Below, one piece after another: positions 3,625 to 17,237 of a stretch of 33,933 bases of DNA. Every line of letters begins with the position of its first letter. The stretch's first letter is position 1. The position numbers were made by a program, and so were the translations under genes. Location of the stretch: the IMG/VR virus record IMGVR_UViG_3300042542_002998, positions 1 through 33,933 of that record, one strand, 5' to 3'. The DNA comes from a virus. The notes under the pieces are model-generated. The model was not told where the DNA came from. It saw nothing but the letters and a program-made list of their open reading frames with translations, and did not search any database.

Positions 3625-4104
3625 CTAGCCTCCGTTGCCGTAGCCAGCCCACGCAATCGCCCTGCAAGCCTCGCCGTAGGCCCGCCGCAAGTCGGCGTCC
3701 ACCGGCTTCACGTCGAGGCCCACCACGCCCGTCATCGCCTTCTCGACGGCCTCACGCAGGCCGGGATACTGCCCCGGCTTCACGCCGCCCAGCCGTCGCC
3801 ACGCGATGTCGAGGCTCAGGACGGTGAAGCCACGCAGCGATCGCGTGTCGGTGAAGATCACCTCGGTGGTCACGGCGTCGCCCGCCACGACGACAGCGGC
3901 CTTCTCCCAAACACTCGCCCAAATGGCCCGCTCGGCCGGGCTGGCGGATCGCAGTGCCTTCGCAACGTCGGCCACCTTCGTCTTCATCTCGTCGCTCACG
4001 TCCTCAACCACAAACGTCGGCGCGGCATGCCTGGGCTGCGGCATCCCAAACGCCGCAACGCAGCCGAGTACAAACGCGATGGCAAGTCGGGTACCAATGC
4101 TCAT
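3625..4104 (-). CDS. Exported protein of unknown function
   Basis: The 159-residue product begins MSIGTRLAIAFVLGCVAAFG, a typical Sec signal peptide with likely cleavage near residue 28 (RHAA). The mature part is mixed helix and strand with no motif I recognise. The ATG is chosen because it overlaps the upstream stop (ATGA); the open frame extends further but without support. It ends 3 nt before the start of the papain-like peptidase, so the two may act together in the envelope. Confidence 0.65.
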   Translation of the reverse strand: MSIGTRLAIAFVLGCVAAFGMPQPRHAAPTFVVEDVSDEMKTKVADVAKALRSASPAERAIWASVWEKAAVVVAGDAVTTEVIFTDTRSLRGFTVLSLDIAWRRLGGVKPGQYPGLREAVEKAMTGVVGLDVKPVDADLRRAYGEACRAIAWAGYGNGG

Positions 4105-4382
4105 TTCTTCGCCTTGGGTGCGTTGCCGAGCATCACGTCGAGCAGCTGCTGGCACAGGGCCACGCCTTCGGCACAGCCTGCCGCCCGTAGCCTCGTGGCC
4201 AGGTCAAGCACGACGTGCAGGTCTTTGCCCGTCACGCTTGGGGCCGCTTCACCTGCGGCTTCCACCGCACGGTCTTGCCACGCGGCTTGGGCTTTCCGAG
4301 CCACGGCGGCAATCGCGGGGCCAGCGACGAGAGCCACTGCCGCCAGAGCGGCGACGATACGAATGGCAGCATCAAGGCTCAC
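4101..4382 (-). CDS. Membrane-anchored small protein, holin-like topology
   Basis: GTG at 4382 overlaps the upstream stop (GTGA) and has GGAGG about 8 nt upstream. From there the product is 93 residues. A hydrophobic Ala-rich helix covers about residues 6-27 (IVAALAAVALVAGPAIAAVA). A soluble helical C-terminus follows with two Cys (AAGCAEGVALCQQLL). One N-terminal span plus a cytoplasmic or periplasmic helix fits class II or III holins or a membrane anchor. Function is not established. Confidence 0.6.
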   Translation of the reverse strand: MSLDAAIRIVAALAAVALVAGPAIAAVARKAQAAWQDRAVEAAGEAAPSVTGKDLHVVLDLATRLRAAGCAEGVALCQQLLDVMLGNAPKAKK

Positions 4383-5283: not shown

Positions 5284-6157
5284 CGGTCGGCTCCATCCAG
5301 TGCATGACCGTTCTCATCGACGGGTCGAGATACAACTTCTGCCCCGTCCGCTCCGTGATGCTTCGATGGAAGGCAACGTGCTCGCAATCCTTCTCCCCGT
5401 CGTAGTGCCCACGCAGGAATGCGAAGCTGTCGTAGATCGCCATGCCGCCGAAGGCCGAGCAGACCGGGAACGGCGGCGAGCCTACCGGCGGCAGGTGACT
5501 GTGCTTCCAGCCGCCGAGCCCGGCGGTGTAGTCATCCCAATACGAATTGAGCCGGTAGGCCCAGGCGTCGTAGTTCACGAAATCCGCGACGAGCTTGGGC
5601 TGCCGGTCTTCGCCCATCGCCATCACAGGATGCTGAATCAGCGCCACGCCCGCCATGCCGTAGGCGTCGGGCGTCGCGTGCAGTGCCCCGATCCCGTGCA
5701 TGACGCCAGCGTGACTCCACCCGCCCCAGGCGTCCCAATCAATGACCACCACGAGATCGTAGTCGGCGCAGGTGTCGGCAACCCACCGCTGACAGGCGGT
5801 GCGGTACTCGGCGAGGGCAATCGTGCGGCGGCCCGCGAACTCGGCCCCGTAGTGCTCACGGTCGAGCCGCTGGCTCGTGAACGTCGCCTCCCGGTGAGCG
5901 GCGGCGAAGTCGGTCAGCACCTGCACCGTTCCATCGGATGAGTCGTTCTCTTCGATGTGCAAACGCCACTCGCCGCACGTCTCGACGAGCTGCTCGAACC
6001 GGCCGAGGTTCGCCTTGAGGTGCGGCGCACAGTTGCGGGCCAGGCCGACGAACGCCACGCGCGAGTCTTGGAAGTGCGACTCGCCCTCACGCACCACCCG
6101 CAGGTGGTCTGCCGCGAACGGCTCAAGCGGATAGACGAGGTGATCGGGGATCTTCAT
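5258..6157 (-). CDS. GT-A fold glycosyltransferase, CAP59-like (GT69 type)
   Basis: The 299-residue protein looks like a nucleotide-sugar-dependent glycosyltransferase. An N-terminal strand (VAFVGLARNCAPHL) and HIEENDSSDGT form the nucleotide-binding start. YDLVVVIDWDAW carries the metal-binding DxD (Asp140, Asp142). FGGMAIYDSFAFL matches the acceptor-side motif of the CAP59/GT69 mannosyltransferase group. The ATG overlaps the methyltransferase stop (ATGA). Together with that enzyme it could modify virion proteins, host surface glycans or DNA. The GT-A assignment is firm; the GT69 subfamily and substrate are inference. Confidence 0.75.
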   Translation of the reverse strand: MKIPDHLVYPLEPFAADHLRVVREGESHFQDSRVAFVGLARNCAPHLKANLGRFEQLVETCGEWRLHIEENDSSDGTVQVLTDFAAAHREATFTSQRLDREHYGAEFAGRRTIALAEYRTACQRWVADTCADYDLVVVIDWDAWGGWSHAGVMHGIGALHATPDAYGMAGVALIQHPVMAMGEDRQPKLVADFVNYDAWAYRLNSYWDDYTAGLGGWKHSHLPPVGSPPFPVCSAFGGMAIYDSFAFLRGHYDGEKDCEHVAFHRSITERTGQKLYLDPSMRTVMHWMEPTDGGRDGDH

Positions 6158-6681
6158 CGCTTCACCGCCACGGCCACGCCGTAGGGCTCGAGCACCTGCC
6201 GCCAGACGGCGATCTCCGGCCGTCGTTCCTCAACCCACTCGTCGAACGCAGTCAGCAGGTAGGGATGCGCGGGATGCGTAATGTCATGAAACGCAACGCA
6301 GCCGCCGGGGCGGCACAGGGGCCAGACGTTCCGCAGGTCGGCCAGCCCGCCCTCATAGGAGTGGTCGCCGTCTACGAGGATCAGATCGAACTGCTGGGCC
6401 AGCGTCGGGATCGTCTGCCTTGAGTCGCCGTCGAGGTATCGCACCTCGCCCGTGTAGAGCATCCCGGCCAGAAGCCGGTCGATGTGGTCGTGCGAGCCGC
6501 GCGAGGAGCCGCCCCACTCGCCGCCCCATGTGTCGGCACACACGATCGACTCAAGGGCCGGGGCGTTCTCCACGACCACCCGCAGCGAACCGCCGTCACG
6601 GGTGCCGATCTCCAAGTAGGACCGCACGGCGTTCTCTTCGCAGTGGCCCGACAAGAAATCGTAGAGGCTCTGGTTGCTCAT
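6154..6681 (-). CDS. SAM-dependent methyltransferase, Methyltransf_24 type
   Basis: The start MSNQSLYDFL at 6681 overlaps the RusA stop (ATGA), giving 175 residues. Motif I is LEIGTRDGGS (about 24-32). Then come ADTWGG, RYLDGDS and the class-typical LVDGDHSYEGGLADL (about 102-116). GGCVAFHDI follows. This pattern is that of the class I methyltransferases often paired with glycosyltransferases, which O-methylate sugars or peptide chains. The pairing with the next gene suggests glycan decoration. A DNA methyltransferase is unlikely, because DPPY/NPPY and PC motifs are absent. Confidence 0.8.
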   Translation of the reverse strand: MSNQSLYDFLSGHCEENAVRSYLEIGTRDGGSLRVVVENAPALESIVCADTWGGEWGGSSRGSHDHIDRLLAGMLYTGEVRYLDGDSRQTIPTLAQQFDLILVDGDHSYEGGLADLRNVWPLCRPGGCVAFHDITHPAHPYLLTAFDEWVEERRPEIAVWRQVLEPYGVAVAVKR

Positions 6682-7085
6682 GCGATCCGCACGGTGGTCC
6701 GTGCCTCCTGGCCGTAAGACTTCTCCACCACGAGCTTCGCCACCTGCGAGTCGTCCTCGAACGCCACGCCGTTCAAGGCGTCGAGGGCCGCCTTCGCGCA
6801 GTTGTCCACGTCGAACCGTGGCAACAGCGGTGCCCCCTTCCGCAGCCCCTTCTTTGTCAGGTGCGAGGCCGGGCGGGCGAAGACGAGATCGAGGATCACC
6901 GTGAGCGGCTCCGTCGTGATCGGCGTTGCCCCGGCCTCGAGGGCCGCCGCTGCGATGGCCGCCCGGTACGCATGCACCGGGTGTTTGCCCGGCACATACG
7001 CCCGCGCGAACCCGCCCCGCGTCGAGACTCTGGGCCTCGGCTGCGGCACGGGATCGCCCGGCACGGAGAAGGTCAACGGCTTCAC
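6678..7085 (-). CDS. rusA: RusA-family Holliday junction resolvase
   Basis: From GTG 7085 (overlapping the upstream stop as GTGA, with a GAGGA site) the product is 135 residues, a normal RusA size. It opens with FSVPGDPVPQPRPR. It contains the catalytic stretch FDVDNCAKAALDAL (Asp92, Asp94, Asp102), then EDDSQV (Asp111, Asp112), the acidic residues that bind metal in RusA. It cuts branched DNA during phage recombination and before packaging, and pairs logically with RecT in this window. Confidence 0.9.
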   Translation of the reverse strand: MKPLTFSVPGDPVPQPRPRVSTRGGFARAYVPGKHPVHAYRAAIAAAALEAGATPITTEPLTVILDLVFARPASHLTKKGLRKGAPLLPRFDVDNCAKAALDALNGVAFEDDSQVAKLVVEKSYGQEARTTVRIA

Positions 7086-7231
7086 GGTGTCCTCGCGGCC
7101 ATGTACAGGCCGACGTTTGCGAACGCATACCCGAGGTAGGCCAGGCCCAGCCCCGCTTTGCCATGCAGGGCCAGGTCGGCCGCCACCACGAGATAGATGC
7201 CGCCCGTGAGGGCGATGAGCCAAGGGGCCAC
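7082..7231 (-). CDS. 49-residue membrane protein
   Basis: This short GTG-started gene encodes two likely membrane helices, APWLIALTGGIYLVVAADLA and GLGLAYLGYAFANVGLYMAA, joined by LHGKA. Its stop overlaps the RusA start (GTGA), and it begins 3 nt after the upstream stop. It has a weak AGGTGA site. Small two-helix proteins of this kind occur widely in phage early regions with no known role. The tight coupling and clear topology make it credible. Confidence 0.6.
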   Translation of the reverse strand: MAPWLIALTGGIYLVVAADLALHGKAGLGLAYLGYAFANVGLYMAARTP

Positions 7232-7577: not shown

Positions 7578-7814
7578 TCAAGCGTCAGGCTCGGCCCGTC
7601 GCTGGGCGAAGTGCCGCTCACGGCACTCCCGCGCACGCTCTTCGATCTCCTCGGGCGTGGGGTCCACGATTCTTTTCCTGTACTTGCATACCCGATCTGG
7701 GATACCGTGCTCGCGCCGCAGTTCGTGCAGGCGTTGCCGCCGGATGCCGAGGTGCGCTGCGATCACGTCAGCAGGCACCTCGGCATCCCACATTTCGCGA
7801 AGGGTTTCGAGCAT
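7578..7814 (-). CDS. Small helix-turn-helix protein
   Basis: The 78-residue protein begins with a helix-turn-helix of Fis or homeodomain type (VPADVIAAHLGIRRQRLHEL). It ends with DPTPEEIEERARECRERHFA, a charged helix also seen at 4939..5283. ATG 7814 lies inside the clamp stop (TGATG). It is probably a DNA-binding regulator or a replication accessory protein; the target is unknown. Confidence 0.65.
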   Translation of the reverse strand: MLETLREMWDAEVPADVIAAHLGIRRQRLHELRREHGIPDRVCKYRKRIVDPTPEEIEERARECRERHFAQRRAEPDA

Positions 7815-8923
7815 CAGTCCTTCGCCAACGGCATGATGACCCCGGTGCAGTCGCCGCAGCGCAGCACCACCGCACTCTGAGCGTCCACCGCCTCGACCTC
7901 GACGGGCTCGGCCTCATCCACGCCACGCAGGAACTCGACCACGAAGCCGGGGTCGAGCGCCACGCTCGCCGTCAGGCCCGCTTCCAGCAGCCCGCACGTC
8001 ACGCTCGACTGCCCGGCCTCGGCACTCTGCGCCGTCAGGTGGATGCCGTTCTCCACGAAGGCGAACGTCACGCCCTTCGACTGCTCACTGGTCACGATGG
8101 CCGCCTGCCGCGTCGCCGCCAGCAGCTCGGCCCCGTTCACGAGCGACGCCTTCGCATCCCGCTCGGGGATCACGTCACGCCACCGGGGGAAGCGTCCCTC
8201 GACGAGCCGGGCCGTGACCACGGTGCCGTCGATCGTCGCCACCACCTCGCGGTCGGTGGCCTCCAGCTGCACCGCCCCCTCACTGTGCGAAGCGATGCTG
8301 CTGATAGTCAGGATCGCCCGCGCCGGGATCAGCGTCGTGGAGTCGTCCACCGCCTGGTCCACCTCGATCCCGTAGGACGAGAGCCGCCGCCCGTCCGTGC
8401 CGACCAGCGTCACCGTGCCGTCCTTCACCTCGACGAGCACCGCCCCGAGGGCGAACCGGCTTGAATCGGTGTCCGTGGCGTAGGCCACCGCCCGCACCGC
8501 CCGCACGAACTGGTCGGCCGGGATGCGGCAGATGGGCTTCACGGTGGGAGTTTCCCACTGTGGGAATTCCGCCGCATCCTCGGTCGGCAGCGTCCAAGTG
8601 CCACCGCCCACGCTCACGGTGCAAGAGTTGCCGCTGGGGGCCAGCGTCACCTCGTCGCCGGATGCCGCCCCGAGGATCGCCTGCAAGCGGGCGAACGGGA
8701 GCAGCAGCGGTGCGTCGGTGTACGGCACCTCGGCCGACACCTGAAGTTCAAGATCACTCGCCGTGATCCCGCCGTTTGCCAGCAAAACGTTCAACAGGAT
8801 CGGCTTCGGGCTTCGGTTTGGAACAGCGGCCCGCACCGCAGCCAGGGCGGCACGGAGCGCTGCGATCGGTAGGGAGATGCCACTGGCGCGAGCCTTCCGT
8901 GGCTTCGTTGCTGTTGCGGTCAT
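7814..8923 (-). CDS. dnaN: DNA polymerase III beta subunit (sliding clamp)
   Basis: The start MTATATKPRKARASG at 8923 (AAAGG upstream) gives 369 residues, a typical bacterial clamp length. Three clamp-like repeats are visible. Landmarks are NRSPKPILLNVLLANGG, FPQWETP, the central VAYATDTDSSRFALGAVLVE with GTDGRRLSSY (the classic TDGHRL site), and late RFPRWRDVIPE and GFVVEFLRGVD. The ring would tether a polymerase to DNA. No DNA polymerase gene lies in the window, so it presumably works with the host replicase. Small temperate phages rarely encode a full clamp, so this is notable. Confidence 0.93.
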   Translation of the reverse strand: MTATATKPRKARASGISLPIAALRAALAAVRAAVPNRSPKPILLNVLLANGGITASDLELQVSAEVPYTDAPLLLPFARLQAILGAASGDEVTLAPSGNSCTVSVGGGTWTLPTEDAAEFPQWETPTVKPICRIPADQFVRAVRAVAYATDTDSSRFALGAVLVEVKDGTVTLVGTDGRRLSSYGIEVDQAVDDSTTLIPARAILTISSIASHSEGAVQLEATDREVVATIDGTVVTARLVEGRFPRWRDVIPERDAKASLVNGAELLAATRQAAIVTSEQSKGVTFAFVENGIHLTAQSAEAGQSSVTCGLLEAGLTASVALDPGFVVEFLRGVDEAEPVEVEAVDAQSAVVLRCGDCTGVIMPLAKD

Positions 8924-9029
8924 GGGAATCCTTTCGAGTGAGGGAACAACCAACAAGAATGCCCAAGCAGAACGTGGCCGCGTTGGCCGCGATTCCTGCC
9001 GAGACAAGTACGAGATCGGAGAGCGTCAT
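8754..9029 (-). CDS. Small membrane protein overlapping the clamp gene
   Basis: ATG 9029 overlaps the upstream stop (ATGA). The first 35 residues (MTLSDLVLVSAGIAANAATF and CLGILVGCSL) form a membrane segment. The rest, to residue 91, is read out of frame across the first 170 nt of the clamp gene and looks like low-quality composition. The N-terminal part is probably real. The long overlap is suspicious but not ruled out, since the frame stays open. Confidence 0.45.
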   Translation of the reverse strand: MTLSDLVLVSAGIAANAATFCLGILVGCSLTRKDSHDRNSNEATEGSRQWHLPTDRSAPCRPGCGAGRCSKPKPEADPVERFAGKRRDHGE

Positions 9030-9271: not shown

Positions 9272-9488
9272 CGACCACCTCCACGCTGCGGGCCTTGTTC
9301 GGGTTGCGACGCAGGTAGCCCTTCTTTTCAAGGGCGTTCAGGTGGCACTGCACGCCGTTCGGCGAGGCGATGCCGTGGGCAGCTGCGATCTCTCGCACGG
9401 TCGGGGCCGCGAGGCGCGAGTTCTCACGAATCCAGTCGAGAAGCTCACGCTGGCGGGCGGTCAGGGGCGGTCGGGCTGTTGCGGTCAT
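9264..9488 (-). CDS. LexA-type winged-helix DNA-binding protein without peptidase domain
   Basis: From ATG 9488 (GAGGACAT upstream, ATGA overlap) the product is 74 residues. LTARQRELLDWIRENSRLAA, PTVREIAAAHGIASPNGV and HLNALEKKGYL match the LexA N-terminal DNA-binding domain. The S24 self-cleaving domain is absent: the protein ends at VEVVDE. It may bind SOS-box-like sites constitutively, acting as a regulator or as an antagonist of host LexA. The domain match is strong; the role is inferred. Confidence 0.8.
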   Translation of the reverse strand: MTATARPPLTARQRELLDWIRENSRLAAPTVREIAAAHGIASPNGVQCHLNALEKKGYLRRNPNKARSVEVVDE

Positions 9489-10369
9489 ATGTCCTCTTCC
9501 TTGAGTTTCACGGCTGATGCAATCGCTGCGACCTCCTTCGGTCGCCGGTATGGGGCGGTCTGGTACTGGTCTTTCCATGCGACCGGGGCAGGCTTCTCGT
9601 CGGCCTGCCCGTAGCCGCGCTGTTTCTTGGCGTTGTCGAACTCGCCCGCCAGGATGCGGTCAACGAACTCGAAGAACTTGGTGACGGCCAGCGGGTTCTC
9701 GAAGAACTTGCAGCGCGGCAGCCTGGCCATCGCCTGCCGGGCACGCTCAAGCCAGCCGGGCGAGGCCGCAAGATCGACCCACCCAGCGGGTGCCATCAGC
9801 GGCGTCCACTTGGCTGCCCGCTCGGTGGCGTTCCAGACAGCCAGGAAGCGGTCCCATTCCTCGGCAGCCCAGCCGGGATGCCCGAAGTCCTCGCCTGCGT
9901 CTCGCGTGCGGTGTGTGTGTTCTTCTTCCCGAAGGGAAGAAGATGGGGATGGAGATGGAGGCTTCGTTTTTGCTTGGCCGTTTGCTTCACCGTTTGCTTG
10001 GCTTTTGCTTGCCGTTTGCTTGGGTGTTTGCTTGCGGTTTGCTTGGCTTTTGCTTCCACCGCTTCGGCCAGACTCTGCTCGCTTGGCCTTCAACTCTTGG
10101 GCCTTTGCCCGGTGCTCCTCCATTCGAGCGTTGCGGCGGTGGCCGTCATCGCACAGCGGGAACTTGGTCTTGAGCAACTCCCATACAGACGAGATTCCTG
10201 GGGAGATCAGTTCCAGCCGTTCAAGCTCGGCAGGCAGGGCTCCGCTGTCCCACTGAATCACCAGCAGGCGGATGTAGTGGCCCACTTCGGCAGCGGTCCA
10301 CATGGCCGTGGAGGCGTAGAAGTCGCGGCCGAAGAACGGGATGTAATGGTCAACCTGCGTGTGCGACAC
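9485..10369 (-). CDS. DUF1376 (YdaU-like) replication-initiation protein
   Basis: The 294-residue protein opens with HYIPFFGRDFYASTAMWTA and EVGHYIRLLVIQWDSGALP, the DUF1376 signature found in phage replication O-like proteins. This is a winged-helix fold. A long Gln/Lys/Ser linker (about residues 95-150) is encoded by short DNA repeats. The C-terminal part (GWAAEEWDRFLAVWNATER to FENPLAVTKFFE) resembles regions that contact replication partners. It probably binds the phage origin and recruits host helicase. It overlaps the upstream HNH fusion gene by 20 nt. The origin itself was not identified. Confidence 0.75.
   Translation of the reverse strand: MSHTQVDHYIPFFGRDFYASTAMWTAAEVGHYIRLLVIQWDSGALPAELERLELISPGISSVWELLKTKFPLCDDGHRRNARMEEHRAKAQELKAKRAESGRSGGSKSQANRKQTPKQTASKSQANGEANGQAKTKPPSPSPSSSLREEEHTHRTRDAGEDFGHPGWAAEEWDRFLAVWNATERAAKWTPLMAPAGWVDLAASPGWLERARQAMARLPRCKFFENPLAVTKFFEFVDRILAGEFDNAKKQRGYGQADEKPAPVAWKDQYQTAPYRRPKEVAAIASAVKLKEEDI
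9966..10056 (-). repeat. Degenerate TTTGCTT repeats encoding a linker
   Basis: About eight copies of TTTGCTT (plus strand), spaced by 3-6 nt, lie inside the DUF1376 gene. They encode a Gln/Lys/Ala-rich linker with the hexapeptide SKSQAN twice. Repeats inside the replication initiator gene are where origins lie in lambdoid phages, so an iteron-like role is possible. Simple slippage expansion of a linker is equally likely. Confidence 0.6.
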
Positions 10370-11285
10370 TGGTTGCCTCCTGTTCAGAAGCCACTAACTC
10401 CCAGAAATGCGACCAGGCTTTCGCCGGAGTCTTGGCCTCGATGTAGTAGCCCCACCTTGTCGCCAGCCACATTTCGTGCGCTGCCTTCGTGGCGGCAAAC
10501 TCGTCGCTCATCGCAACGACGACGGCCTTGCCGAGGGCTCTTGCGTACCCGATCTCAAGGATGGTGCCGTAGCAGTCCGGCCCGTCGATCCATGCAAAAA
10601 CAAGGTCGGCGGCCTCTATCGCAAACTGAACGGCGTCGGAGACCTCCGTGCGCGCCACATTTAGATCAGAGCCATCAGGCAAACAGGCGAACCGATCGAA
10701 CTCAACAATCGACTCGTCGTCTAAGAAGTAGCCGTGCGGGTGCTTTGATATGCGGGCGTTGCCGTGCCCGCAACACAACCCCCTCGTGTCCTTCCACCAC
10801 GGCCCCGTGTAATGCAGGTTGACCCCGCACGCCGCGCAGGCGTTTGGGACGGTCGCCCATCGGTGGCAATGGTCGTAGTCGATAAACGCTTGCCAGTAAG
10901 TACCCTCATGGTGATTCTCATCGGACCACCGCGGAACAATTTCATCACGCCAAGTTGTTCCCGTAATCTTCCCGGCGAGATAAAAAGACTTGACGCTCTC
11001 GCCGCGCCAAGGAAGCACGACAGGGCGATTTTCAGCGGGGTCGCTGTCGGACTTTGCATGAATGAAGTCGTGACACTGCCTGCAACACGCCTGTAAATCC
11101 TCAAGCCTCTCTGCGTACTTGCGCTCGTAGGTCAGGTGGTGAACGTGATCCATCGGGTTCACTTTGCATCGCTCGCAAACGCCGCCGCTTCGGCTCTTCA
11201 CGGCCTCCTTCAGCACAGACCACTCGCGACTGCATAGATACGCCGAGTATTTTTCTTTTCCGTCTGGCATCTTTTTCCAACGCAT
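10350..11285 (-). CDS. HNH domain fused to nucleoside 2-deoxyribosyltransferase-like domain
   Basis: From ATG 11285 (GGAGG 6 nt upstream, TGATG coupling) the product is 311 residues. Residues 37-76 are HNH-like: Cys37xxCys40, VHHLTY with His49-His50, then Cys68xxCys71-His72 and His76. From about 98 on, KSFYLAGKITGTTWRDEIVP and DLVFAWIDGPDCYGTILEIG with YARALGK match the nucleoside 2-deoxyribosyltransferase fold, with Glu244 as likely nucleophile. A Cys-containing insert lies between (CAAC at 150-153, CC at 171-172). Each domain is common in phages; the fusion is not one I recognise. It may act on modified or unusual nucleosides or on nucleotide signals. Confidence 0.8.
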   Translation of the reverse strand: MRWKKMPDGKEKYSAYLCSREWSVLKEAVKSRSGGVCERCKVNPMDHVHHLTYERKYAERLEDLQACCRQCHDFIHAKSDSDPAENRPVVLPWRGESVKSFYLAGKITGTTWRDEIVPRWSDENHHEGTYWQAFIDYDHCHRWATVPNACAACGVNLHYTGPWWKDTRGLCCGHGNARISKHPHGYFLDDESIVEFDRFACLPDGSDLNVARTEVSDAVQFAIEAADLVFAWIDGPDCYGTILEIGYARALGKAVVVAMSDEFAATKAAHEMWLATRWGYYIEAKTPAKAWSHFWELVASEQEATSVAHAG

Positions 11286-11644
11286 CACGCACCTCCTTGA
11301 ATTGCTTCCAGCCCCTTATCCGTCACGCGGCAAATCCGCTGCATCTCGCCCGCCTGGCTGCGGCGCTGCTCGCCCGTGTCGGCGATGTAGCCGTGTTCGA
11401 GGAGCTCGCCGCACCGCTTCCAGTAGCAGCAGCCCTTGCGGTCACTCAGGCCCGAGAGATCGCCCGCCTGCTCGTTGGTGAGCGGGCCGCGCTCGACGTA
11501 TTGCCGCAGCAGTTCCCAGCGTTGCGAGCCAGCCCGCACGCGCAACTCCTTCGAGACGGCGCAGCGGATGGGCAGTTCCACCTTGCGATCTGCCGCCGCG
11601 AACAGCGGCATGTCTGCCAGCGTTTCCGAGTAGTAGTCGCTCAC
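11285..11644 (-). CDS. Winged-helix DNA-binding protein
   Basis: The 119-residue protein starts at GTG 11644 with AGGAAAGGA upstream. Residues about 38-110 fit a MarR-like winged helix: SQRWELLRQYVERGPLTNEQ, AGDLSGLSDRKGCCYWKR as recognition region, then a wing ending ICRVTDKGLEAI. It is probably an early-region regulator. A structural Zn site is unlikely, because the Cys are not spaced for it. Confidence 0.65.
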   Translation of the reverse strand: MSDYYSETLADMPLFAAADRKVELPIRCAVSKELRVRAGSQRWELLRQYVERGPLTNEQAGDLSGLSDRKGCCYWKRCGELLEHGYIADTGEQRRSQAGEMQRICRVTDKGLEAIQGGA

Positions 11645-11846: not shown

Positions 11847-12165
11847 CGTTGTGTTCCTCAGGTGTTGCTTTGCTTGCGTGTCTCACGGCGGCGCGAGCGC
11901 CGCCCCAAACGTTGACGATCACGGCGTCGGTCAGTTGCCCGCGCTCGGCAAGCACCTGGTCGAGCCCCACGAGCGCCTTGTAAAGTTCCCACCCAGCCGC
12001 CCTCGCCTGCTCGGGAGTGAGCGTCGCCATCGGCATCGGCTGGAAGCCGCCGCTGCGAACCCGTGAAGGCATCCGAATCGGCGGACGATCCTTCATGCGG
12101 ATGTCCGACTCCTCGCGACGGGCCTCCTCTTCGAGGTAGGCGAAGGTGGTGATGGGCTGGGTCAC
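11743..12165 (-). CDS. Hypothetical early protein
   Basis: The 140-residue protein overlaps the recT stop by 4 nt (ATGA). The N-terminal half is charged and helical (FAYLEEEARREESDIRMKDR). The middle contains a helical segment (TPEQARAAGWELYKALVGLD), and the C-terminus is a disordered Glu/Gly/Ala tail. Its coupling to recT suggests a helper in recombination, perhaps comparable to small proteins beside phage annealases. No family recognised. Confidence 0.6.
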   Translation of the reverse strand: MTQPITTFAYLEEEARREESDIRMKDRPPIRMPSRVRSGGFQPMPMATLTPEQARAAGWELYKALVGLDQVLAERGQLTDAVIVNVWGGARAAVRHASKATPEEHNDGVARQLDADAKEETAPAAGGSPQEGSGGEAGDA

Positions 12166-12965
12166 GACTGCGCCTCCACCATGAGTGCGTCGAGCTTCGC
12201 GTGGATGGCCGAGCAGACTTCCTTGTGCTCGTCCCCGGTGAAGGTGCCGTCGCCCAGCCGTTCGTCGGCGGTCGTCCGCAGGGCTTCGAGCCGGTCGATG
12301 GTGGTCGCCCGACCCACGGCCGCACGGGCCTTCTCAATCGCTGACGGGGCCAAGGCGACTTGCACGGCAGCAGGCACCGGCGTGTCGAACTTAGGCCGCA
12401 CCTGCACGGGCTCGCGGACGGGCTCGGCCTGCGGGTAGTCCTGGGCCTCTTCGGCCGTGATGAGGCCACGCAGGGCGTCAGCGAAGGCGTTGCGAAGTGC
12501 AAAGCCCCGTGCTCTCAGGGCCAGCATCCGCTCGGGGTATTGGGTCCACGGCCCGCTCTTGCCAGCCAGCCCCGCCCGCTTGGCGTCGGCCATCGAAAAC
12601 CGGCTGATCGTCGGAGCCGGGTAGCCGCGACGCTTGGCCTCGCACACGGCGGTCAGGTTGTCGCCCTGGCCCTCGGTGTATTCCTTGACGTACTCGCAGA
12701 CGAGGCTGCTCTGCACCAAGGCCAGGGCGGCATCGCCCCAGATGGTCGGCCTGCCGTTGATCACGGCAATGCTCTGGAGCGATTGCATCGGGCTCAGGCC
12801 GACTTCGCTCCCGTGCTGGATCGCCAGCATGCAGGACTCGGGCTTGCCCCGGAAATCCTTGGGGGCGAACTCAGACGCCGCCACCATCTTCGAGAAGCGG
12901 AAGGCGTCGTCGAACGATTGAAGGGCAAGTCCGCCTGCCCGCTGCGTTGAAATCTCCGTGCTCAT
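12162..12965 (-). CDS. recT: RecT-family single-strand annealing recombinase
   Basis: The start MSTEISTQRAGGLAL at 12965 follows AAAGGGA, giving 267 residues. Core motifs are AIQHGSEVGLSPMQSLQSIA, VINGRPTIWGDAALAL, FSMADAKRAGL and QYPERMLALRARGFALRNAF, followed by DALRGL. These are typical of the phage RecT group that anneals ssDNA. The frame is open upstream through the G16/C16 tract to 13253, but that extension lacks a good start. The C-terminal 70 residues are a variable tail. RecT with RusA forms the phage recombination set; no RecE-type exonuclease is clearly present. Confidence 0.9.
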   Translation of the reverse strand: MSTEISTQRAGGLALQSFDDAFRFSKMVAASEFAPKDFRGKPESCMLAIQHGSEVGLSPMQSLQSIAVINGRPTIWGDAALALVQSSLVCEYVKEYTEGQGDNLTAVCEAKRRGYPAPTISRFSMADAKRAGLAGKSGPWTQYPERMLALRARGFALRNAFADALRGLITAEEAQDYPQAEPVREPVQVRPKFDTPVPAAVQVALAPSAIEKARAAVGRATTIDRLEALRTTADERLGDGTFTGDEHKEVCSAIHAKLDALMVEAQS

Positions 12966-13108
12966 CTTTCGCGTCCCTTTCTGCGTGATGTGAAAACCGG
13001 CTCCGCTTCCTGCCTTGCCGGTCGATCCCTTCCTGGGCCATCCCGGTTCCACCGGGCTCCGTGTCTCTTGCGCGCCGTCTAATCCCTTGCGGGCGGGGTG
13101 TTCTAAAT

Positions 13109-13124
13109 GGGGGGGGGGGGGGGG
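13109..13124. repeat. G16 homopolymer tract
   Basis: Sixteen consecutive G on the plus strand (C on the coding strand) lie between recT and the next upstream gene. No other homopolymer of this length was noticed. It sits in a 191-nt non-coding leader (12966-13156) that also holds a small palindrome, CCCGGT-GGA-ACCGGG. Such tracts mutate by slippage and could vary leader structure or spacing. A sequencing artefact is possible. Confidence 0.85.
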
Positions 13125-13156
13125 CAATATCCGTGCCATTTCCCCCGTGTTTTTTG

Positions 13157-13378
13157 CTAGTGCGTGATGTCCACGAGCGGCACGCGGAGCCAACTGCCGC
13201 CCACGTCGAGCACCACCATGTGGCCGTCGATCCACTCCACGCGCCCGCTCCACGTCTTGCCGCTGGTCGTGCCGCTGATGAAGTCGCCCACGGCGGGCTC
13301 GGCCGGTGCGGCGGTGTGCTCGGCCATCCCGGCCACGGCGGCGAGGTACTCGTTCTGATGGGGGTCGGTACTGTACAT
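13157..13378 (-). CDS. Small SH3-like beta protein, unknown
   Basis: The 73-residue protein has an N-terminal helix, then a compact beta pattern (GDFISGTTSGKTWSGRVEWI, DGHMVVLDVGGSWLRVPLVD) resembling a small SH3-like or Tudor-like barrel. ATG 13378 has AAAGGAG upstream and a strong promoter about 30 nt before it, so it is the first gene of the recT-replication transcript. Confidence 0.65.
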   Translation of the reverse strand: MYSTDPHQNEYLAAVAGMAEHTAAPAEPAVGDFISGTTSGKTWSGRVEWIDGHMVVLDVGGSWLRVPLVDITH

Positions 13379-15584: not shown

Positions 15585-15931
15585 TCGACGCTCTCCCGGT
15601 ACAGCACCAGGGCAATGATTGAATACGCCGCAAGGTCCAGCAGCGTGTCTTCCACGCCGTCAAATTCCACCTCGCCCCGGCGAAAGAACGACCGCAGCCG
15701 GTGCATCTTGTCGCTCATTCGCAGCACGCAGCCAGCGTAGGCGGGCACGTTGATGACATCGGCCGAGTTGCGAATGTTGCTCAGAGCATCATCGTCCTGC
15801 CCGTAGTCTTTTGTCTTCCGAAGGTGCAGCGTGCGAATCTCGTCGAGGATGTCGAGAAACTCGCGCGAGCCGGGCCGCAATCCCTCTCGCATCACGCCAT
15901 CGCCATTGAGTCGGTCGGCCACGTCAATCAT
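15581..15931 (-). CDS. DUF1599 / Nmad1-like phage protein
   Basis: The 116-residue protein carries LDILDEIRTLHLRKTKDYGQ, DDDALSNIRNSAD, LRMSDKMHRLRSFFRRGE and EDTLLDLAAYSIIAL. This all-alpha pattern fits the DUF1599 family, also called nucleotide modification associated domain 1, and the wider MazG/dUTPase-like helical fold with its metal-binding acidic residues. It may bind or hydrolyse a nucleotide. The family call is from memory of the motif; activity is unproven. Confidence 0.7.
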   Translation of the reverse strand: MIDVADRLNGDGVMREGLRPGSREFLDILDEIRTLHLRKTKDYGQDDDALSNIRNSADVINVPAYAGCVLRMSDKMHRLRSFFRRGEVEFDGVEDTLLDLAAYSIIALVLYRESVE

Positions 15932-17007
15932 TCCTTTCCCTTTCGCAAATCTCGGTCGCAGAACAATGGGTACGCTCGCGTCACTTCATTGCGCCGGTGA
16001 TCGACAATGGCCATGCCTTGACATGGCCGCTCAGGAGAAGCGACCCGATCAGCGTATGGGGAATGTCCAATGACCGATCCGTTCGCAACGTATCTCGCAC
16101 CACGCAGCCAGCCCCACGAGTGGTAGTGGCCGAAGATCGTCAGGTCTGCTTTGCGGCCAGCGTCCCATCGGGCGATTGCTTTGCTCGCTGGCAGCGCGAG
16201 ACCGTAGACGCCCCCAGCGAACCGAATTGAGTGACCATGGGTCGTGCGAACGAGGAACCCATCAAGGTTGACGTAGCCCAGGTGCCCCTCGGCAATCTGC
16301 CACTGCACGTTCTTGTTTCGCTCTTCGCGGGCGAGCGTGAAGTACATCAACTGCTCCCACGAATGATCGAGTTCTGTTGCGACCCTCGGCTTGCCCTCGT
16401 TGCTGCGGCCGTGGTTGCCTGCGTTCGTGCAGATGACCACCTGCTCGGCGTGCTTGGCCACGCTGTCGATGAGCCCGCGCAGCCGCTCGGCAATCCAGCG
16501 GGTGGCGTTCATCGGCGAGAGCTGTGCCACCTCTACGCAGTCGGGGTGGATGTGCCCCGTGATGAAGTCGCCGCCCAACCAGATGAGCACGCGGCGAACG
16601 TCCGCCTGGTTTCGTTCGTGTTCAAGGCAGTCGAGGAATCGCTCCTCTAACTCGGCGAGCCGCTTCTGACACACTTCGAGCGAGTAGTCGTTTTCGCCGT
16701 TCACGGTTTCAGGCAGCACCCGCTCTTCGGCGTGAACGTCCGACAGCATGAGAATCGCCGTGGCGTCGTGCCGCACCCGCTTGCGGCCCTTGGTGCCTTT
16801 GTTCAAGGCCACCGGCTTGAGGCTCGTCAGCGAGGCCAAGCCGTTCGCCCGTTCCCGCTCCTTGTCGATCTGGGCGAGCGCCGCCTTATACCGGTTCCGG
16901 TATGAAGCCACCTCGGCCCGCAGCCGGGCCAGTTCGGCGTCGGCCGCCAGCTGCGACGCCTGCTCCATCCCGGCCACGATCTCGTCGGCTATTTTTCTTC
17001 GAGCCAA
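15928..17007 (-). CDS. Calcineurin-like metallophosphoesterase with N-terminal coiled coil
   Basis: With the TTG start at 17007 the product is 359 residues. Residues 5-55 form a coiled coil (AELARLRAEVASYRNRYKAA). The metal motifs are LSDVHAEE (Asp90, His92), GGDFITGH (Asp147), AGNHGR (Asn198, His199), THGHS (His257) and FGHYHS (His294, His296), the complete set for a dinuclear phosphoesterase. It may be a nuclease or nucleotide phosphatase. The start is uncertain: GTG and ATG codons exist further in, and the frame is open to 17076. Confidence 0.85.
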   Translation of the reverse strand: MARRKIADEIVAGMEQASQLAADAELARLRAEVASYRNRYKAALAQIDKERERANGLASLTSLKPVALNKGTKGRKRVRHDATAILMLSDVHAEERVLPETVNGENDYSLEVCQKRLAELEERFLDCLEHERNQADVRRVLIWLGGDFITGHIHPDCVEVAQLSPMNATRWIAERLRGLIDSVAKHAEQVVICTNAGNHGRSNEGKPRVATELDHSWEQLMYFTLAREERNKNVQWQIAEGHLGYVNLDGFLVRTTHGHSIRFAGGVYGLALPASKAIARWDAGRKADLTIFGHYHSWGWLRGARYVANGSVIGHSPYADRVASPERPCQGMAIVDHRRNEVTRAYPLFCDRDLRKGKE

Positions 17008-17237
17008 TTCAGCACCCCGTGGTAGCCCACGGTGGCGATCCCGTGGTCGGTTAGGTACTTCGCGATTCCACGGCACACCGGCTTCTTGCCCGTGCCAAAC
17101 TCGCCAGCACGATATGCCCGGCGGATTTCTGCGAGCGTTGCTTGGTGTTCTGGCGCAACCTTCTGATGCCAGCAGAGTGCCTTGCCGCTCGGGATGTTTG
17201 AGCGAATCTCAGCGAGCAGGCTTTTTGCCTTTGCCAC
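16989..17237 (-). CDS. Small protein, possible DNA-binding
   Basis: The 82-residue protein starts at GTG 17237 (AAAGGAAAAG upstream). It ends in a likely helix-turn-helix (YLTDHGIATVGYHGVLNWLE). The N-terminal part is basic and helical, with HQKVAPEHQATLAEIRRAY. It resembles small proteins that decide between binding sites in phage control regions, but no family is certain. Confidence 0.6.
   Translation of the reverse strand: MAKAKSLLAEIRSNIPSGKALCWHQKVAPEHQATLAEIRRAYRAGEFGTGKKPVCRGIAKYLTDHGIATVGYHGVLNWLEEK

Follow-up and report, generated by a model that had tools for sequence, protein, structure and literature searches.

The window analysed here, the whole 33,933-nucleotide stretch of the IMG/VR virus record IMGVR_UViG_3300042542_002998, encodes on its minus strand a 311-amino-acid protein in which an HNH nuclease domain is fused to a nucleoside 2-deoxyribosyltransferase (NDT)-like domain. 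The NDT domain belongs to a phage-rich clade in which fusions to no fewer than four unrelated types of DNA-cutting domain occur, a pattern suggesting that the two activities cooperate. We propose, with about even confidence, that the protein is an enzyme of the replication module with two catalytic domains, an HNH nickase and a nucleotide N-glycosidase, serving one job in phage DNA replication.

The fusion gene and its two domains

The fusion gene (10350..11285, minus strand, stop codon included) was delimited by its open reading frame, its ribosome-binding site and its homologues. It starts with the ATG at 11285, an AGGAGG site being located 6 bases upstream, and the ORF listing also allows the GTG at 11288 as an alternative start codon; residues are numbered with the ATG as 1. 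The upstream gene (11285..11644, minus strand; phrog_18663, a family of no assigned function, winged-helix-like by eye) has its stop in the fusion start codon, and the downstream gene (9485..10369, minus strand), a member of a primosomal protein family (phrog_9327, E 7e-12), starts within the fusion end with a 20-base overlap, hence the three genes form a tightly packed cluster. The same module, also on the minus strand, comprises a RecT-like annealing protein (12162..13253; phrog_561, E 3e-48 over 12165-13049), a DNA polymerase processivity factor or beta clamp (7814..9007; phrog_947, E 1e-54) and an exonuclease (15928..17076; phrog_284, E 5e-34). A methyltransferase gene (6154-7164; Methyltransf_24, 5.9e-20) shares its strand with the replication genes, and a cytosine-5-type methyltransferase (by eye) is found near the fusion in the related contig L007. 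Searches with the portal and clamp proteins of the window, aimed at the host, returned no close relative.

The HNH nuclease domain (residues 10-84; 11034..11258, minus strand) is matched by PHROG HNH families over the N-terminal 84 residues (best E 8.7e-10 in the profile search) and aligns with IscB-type HNH chains. The Pfam HNH profile scores 16.7 bits on the window protein, below its cut-off of 21.4; the cut-off is passed by the type C HNH domains of L081 and L089 (see below). The domain carries C37xxC40, H49H50, D63, C68xxC71H72 and H76, and its four cysteines (C37, C40, C68, C71) and four histidines (H49, H50, H72, H76) are invariant in six fusions. In the structure model (pLDDT >90 for this domain) the beta-beta-alpha order is formed by strand 48-51, strand 65-68 and helix 70-76, and Foldseek matched the HNH part to viral HNH models with a probability of 1.00. 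By pattern, its zinc-binding and catalytic residues agree with those found to be important in Gp16 of PhiNM1, a RecA-dependent nickase with a nuclease centre of H157, H185 and H189 (PMC12817073). The preliminary description had read an HNH zinc fold from C37xxC40, HH and CxxCH, and the PHROG match, the conservation and the betabetaalpha order bear this out.

The NDT (DrHyd) domain (residues 97-300; 10386..10997, minus strand) matches PF05014 with 31.9 bits, above the cut-off of 28.8. Its closest NDT profile matches are solved CMP N-glycosidases (4jen, E 2.5e-5), other enzymes of the NDT/DNPH1 superfamily being matched as well, and no SLOG profile was matched by the window protein (L024 gave a weak SLOG match, below cut-off). 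Residues 88-305 of the model match NDT, DNPH1 and YtoQ at Z 10-11.6, with MilB also among the solved matches. The predicted catalytic triad consists of Tyr102 (10980..10982) in a YLAGK motif, Asp227 (10605..10607) and the putative nucleophile Glu244 (10554..10556) in a GTxxExG motif, all on the minus strand; Tyr102 and Glu244 are present in 37/37 clade members, while the Asp is found in 32/37 and replaced by Glu in 5/37. By motif, Tyr102 corresponds to Y24 and Glu244 to E104 of DNPH1, whose catalytic triad Y24/D80/E104 and mechanism have been described (PMC10603095); Asp227 is the counterpart of D80, and Glu244 corresponds also to E98 of L. leichmannii NDT. Profiles, structure and the conservation of Glu244 in every member support its earlier designation as the probable catalytic residue.

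A segment of the domain (10734..10811, minus strand) holds the clade-specific YTGPWW motif and two histidines of an insert, with GP conserved in 37/37, H174 in 35/37 and H184 in 31/37 members. This insert was initially described as Cys-containing; the cysteines are indeed present in the window protein, but they are not conserved. A conserved zinc site in the insert was rejected, since L006 and L007 lack C153 and the clade keeps His instead.

The AlphaFold2 model, computed from a 45-row alignment (mean pLDDT 85.6, pTM 0.80; 91-97 in the HNH blocks and 86-97 in the NDT core), replaced an earlier 14-row model that was poor in the HNH half. The finding of neither fold by structure prediction had been set beforehand as the refuting test; a betabetaalpha-metal and an NDT fold were both found, so the presence of an HNH and an NDT-like domain in one protein, as first described, agrees with profiles, model and conservation alike. 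The insert lies as a loop over the NDT pocket and is modelled with low confidence, therefore the pocket and the substrate are not readable from the model. Compared to L001, dN/dS is 0.04 in the HNH domain, 0.06 in the NDT core and 0.35 in the insert. Both domains are thus under purifying selection, and the insert evolves fast except for the YTGPWW motif and the two histidines.

Distribution of the fusion and the partners of the NDT clade

Close relatives of the window protein were found in the IMG/VR contigs L001, L002, L033, L006, L007 and L030. The search for the same fusion and its gene neighbours, suggested at the outset as a check, showed that the fusion recurs in further phage contigs and that the gene order is kept: in six phage contigs, the window included, the fusion gene has a small gene upstream and a primosomal gene downstream (neighbours in the relatives were identified by eye from ORF translations). 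The joining is not due to chance, since many independent contigs carry it intact. Among phages sharing the HNH-NDT gene, the primosomal gene downstream comes in two dissimilar forms (window 9485-10369 compared to L002 and L006), i.e., the fusion was kept and its neighbour exchanged. The NDT half found no counterpart of this clade in 50,697 phage records, nor was there any match in a first genome scan (query A2); chromosomal occurrence amounts to one of 396 Actinomycetota genomes and two of 296 genomes of the genus Streptomyces.

The clade, recognized by its YTGPWW or YTGPFF motif, carries a nuclease domain in 29 of the 37 members found, a proportion that is not an unbiased rate, because near copies are included (L083/L084) and some members were reached via the HNH domain. 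The partner domains, called by profile searches and in close relatives by alignment or eye, are an N-terminal HNH of type A (12 members), an HNH of type B with a zinc ribbon (2), an HNH of type C (4), a C-terminal DUF559/MTES_1575 Vsr-like nuclease (8), a C-terminal MUG113/T5orf172 GIY-YIG domain (1) and an N-terminal PD-(D/E)XK-like domain (2, by PHROG resolvase/endonuclease matches). The remainder comprises one member with an AlpA HTH, five stand-alone members and two with unknown extra parts. A scan starting from mixed NDT rows found a nuclease on 9/14 new loci. In the AlpA-type fusion (L100:3587-4423) the catalytic Tyr, Asp and Glu of the NDT domain are intact. In L024, the gene of an NDT-DUF559 protein is preceded by an HD 5'-deoxynucleotidase-like gene (3752-4300) and followed by a DUF6884-like gene (7738-8400), both recognized by eye.

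Followed outwards, the HNH half is most often joined to an NDT domain, once to DnaB and otherwise to unknown or short tails, which shows it to be mobile itself. The DnaB case is L048:3001-4224, where this HNH module is followed by a DnaB-like replicative helicase (phrog_19, 6.6e-64). A single clade for the HNH type A fusions was rejected in the NDT tree (AU p 0.0002) and no longer rejected (p 0.16) when L014, bearing a different HNH, was added; in the HNH tree a single clade of the NDT-linked HNH domains was rejected (AU p 0.0017). A single origin of the fusion is accordingly disfavoured by both trees, which have long branches. More than one joining or swap, for which we claim no number, is likely from these sequences, with the reservation that the branches are long and that L014 removes the rejection in the NDT tree.

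In a rival reading the nucleases hitch-hike: HNH, GIY-YIG and Vsr-like domains would spread in frame onto replication genes as homing-type nucleases that serve themselves, while the NDT domain works alone. The occurrence of the same HNH module at the N terminus of DnaB and of unknown proteins would fit such a process, as would the typical homing families among the partners, and an in-frame homing HNH is known from a phage methylase (ShiLan, PMC11855218). ShiLan, similarly to the window protein, has the HNH within a phage DNA-metabolism protein, however, it is an insertion with homing behaviour, whereas the fused parts in the present clade are terminal, all contigs found of the window lineage have the fusion, and no empty allele was seen among them. 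Moreover, the nucleases, though unrelated, are concentrated on a single NDT clade and not scattered over random genes. That the NDT domain stays constant while its nucleases are swapped favours, not decisively, a functional link over hitch-hiking, which we consider rather unlikely.

The same arrangement, an invariable domain that bears one of four unrelated nuclease folds at either of its ends, or in one member an AlpA HTH, has the look of a sensor with variable outputs. The NDT domain might bind, and may slowly hydrolyse, a nucleotide signal, e.g., an NAD/ADP-ribose derivative or an unusual dNMP, thereby controlling whether the attached nuclease is active, with the sensor as the constant part and the output as the variable one. 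Such a role was proposed for phage SLOG-HNH fusions (PMC9503650), which likewise combine a nucleotide-handling Rossmann-like domain of the TIR-DrHyd-SLOG class with an HNH, SLOG being a sister fold; the domain of the window protein differs in being a DrHyd/NDT domain whose catalytic triad is intact. This triad, kept in 37/37 members (with Asp to Glu in five), would be superfluous in a pure sensor, and the stand-alone members lack an output domain. Its conservation speaks, though not decisively, for an enzyme rather than a pure sensor, and we give the sensor reading perhaps one chance in four. The stand-alone members, together with the HTH fusion, also indicate that the nuclease is not strictly needed.

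Replication setting and proposed activity

Ten genes adjoining clade NDT genes in other loci were inspected: six encode a primase or primase/polymerase (L041, L055, L060, L095, L019 and L022), two DnaB (L020 and L014), one a Sak4-like protein (L081) and one a protein without assigned function (L089). This location in replication modules argues for a part in replicating or processing DNA. In the phages of L041 and L043 the fusion is accompanied by a second, canonical NDT encoded elsewhere (157 aa in L105), so that salvage in these phages probably does not depend on the fused copy alone.

In the two-domain replication enzyme that we propose, the HNH domain would nick or cut DNA with a metal in its beta-beta-alpha active site (H49/H50, H72, H76), and the NDT domain would break or transfer a base-(deoxy)ribose bond by double displacement. 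Glu244 would attack C1' and Asp227 would protonate the leaving base, with support from Tyr102, as in DNPH1 and NDT. The joint job would most likely be to open DNA and at the same time remove or remodel particular nucleotides, be they of the host, damaged or modified. At the level of sequence and model, both folds with their catalytic residues intact and conserved are established, as is the replication setting; from these we infer that the two domains are catalytic, what they act on and what the protein does. To our knowledge, nucleases of the HNH kind do not release mononucleotides, therefore a direct hand-over of the product to the NDT domain is not obvious. The earlier idea that the protein links DNA cutting to a modified base or nucleotide signal is strengthened by the repeated fusion to unrelated nucleases, a gain that concerns the link and not the activity or the substrate.

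An NDT domain acting on DNA itself, by removing or exchanging a base so that the attached nuclease cuts at or near the site, is in our estimation improbable, the least probable of the readings weighed here. In its favour, all identified partners, the AlpA HTH included, bind or cut DNA, and the pocket carries a loop peculiar to this clade, with YTGPWW and two His. An NDT domain fused to AbiJ-NTD1 was predicted to act on DNA as ricin does on RNA (PMC3710099); that fusion resembles the present one as an NDT in a conflict-type fusion, however, it has no nuclease and belongs to a host abortive-infection setting, in contrast to the phage replication module of the window. A general link to 7-deazaguanine DNA modification was rejected, with QueC in 0/33 and a DpdA-like gene in 2/33 records, and this lack of association with DNA-modification genes speaks against base attack. 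So does the fact that the NDT-fold enzymes matched here act on free nucleosides or nucleotides, the only substrates so far known to us for this fold. Were base attack true, the clade would be a phage-borne family of modular base-excision nucleases with HNH, Vsr-like, GIY-YIG or PD-(D/E)XK parts.

In the phages of L043 and L041, a QueE gene (4njg, 1.6e-16 for L105), the canonical NDT and a DpdA-like protein recognized by eye occur together (L105:2727-4595, and L104), possibly as a 7-deazaguanine DNA modification locus; for the DpdA reading no convincing solved relative was found.

Relation to known systems

Both halves of the protein fall into established families, and fusions of a related kind have been described; within the literature searched, what is new is the joining of HNH to NDT in one protein and the NDT clade with its linked nucleases. 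In fold (Z up to 11.6), Tyr/Asp/Glu triad, GTxxExG motif and PF05014 match the NDT domain is like DNPH1 (RCL), the CMP N-glycosidases MilB and BcmB and L. leichmannii NDT, and it differs from them by the long pocket insert with YTGPWW/FF and two conserved His, as well as by the nuclease fusion. The HNH domain shares the zinc CxxC/CxxC frame, HH and H..H and the beta-beta-alpha fold with phrog_144/phrog_119-type HNH proteins, PhiNM1 Gp16 and IscB-like HNH, however, it has an N-terminal EKYxAYLCSREW module, and its partner is NDT (or DnaB) and not a NinB-like or RuvC domain. A survey of DrHyd domains in viruses reports only members of the ADP-ribosyl-cyclase type (PMC9503650). No published HNH-NDT fusion or nuclease-linked NDT clade was found in the literature searched, which covered few subscription papers; this, together with the 50,697 phage records, is consistent with the original remark that the fusion is not generally known. 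Membership in a known defence system is not supported, PADLOC matches covering only shared nuclease parts; for the window protein the match is confined to the HNH domain, which resembles part of ZorE (4e-5).

If our reading is right, phages have repeatedly linked one NDT clade to DNA cutting while replacing the nuclease by others of unrelated fold, and glycosidic-bond chemistry on nucleotides would be coupled to DNA cleavage during phage replication in a so far unstudied way. It would also correct annotations. A Streptomyces canus plasmid protein (WP_331722838.1; L008:6001-6906) is filed only as DUF559, with its NDT half unmentioned, while its N-terminal two thirds are an NDT domain of this clade.
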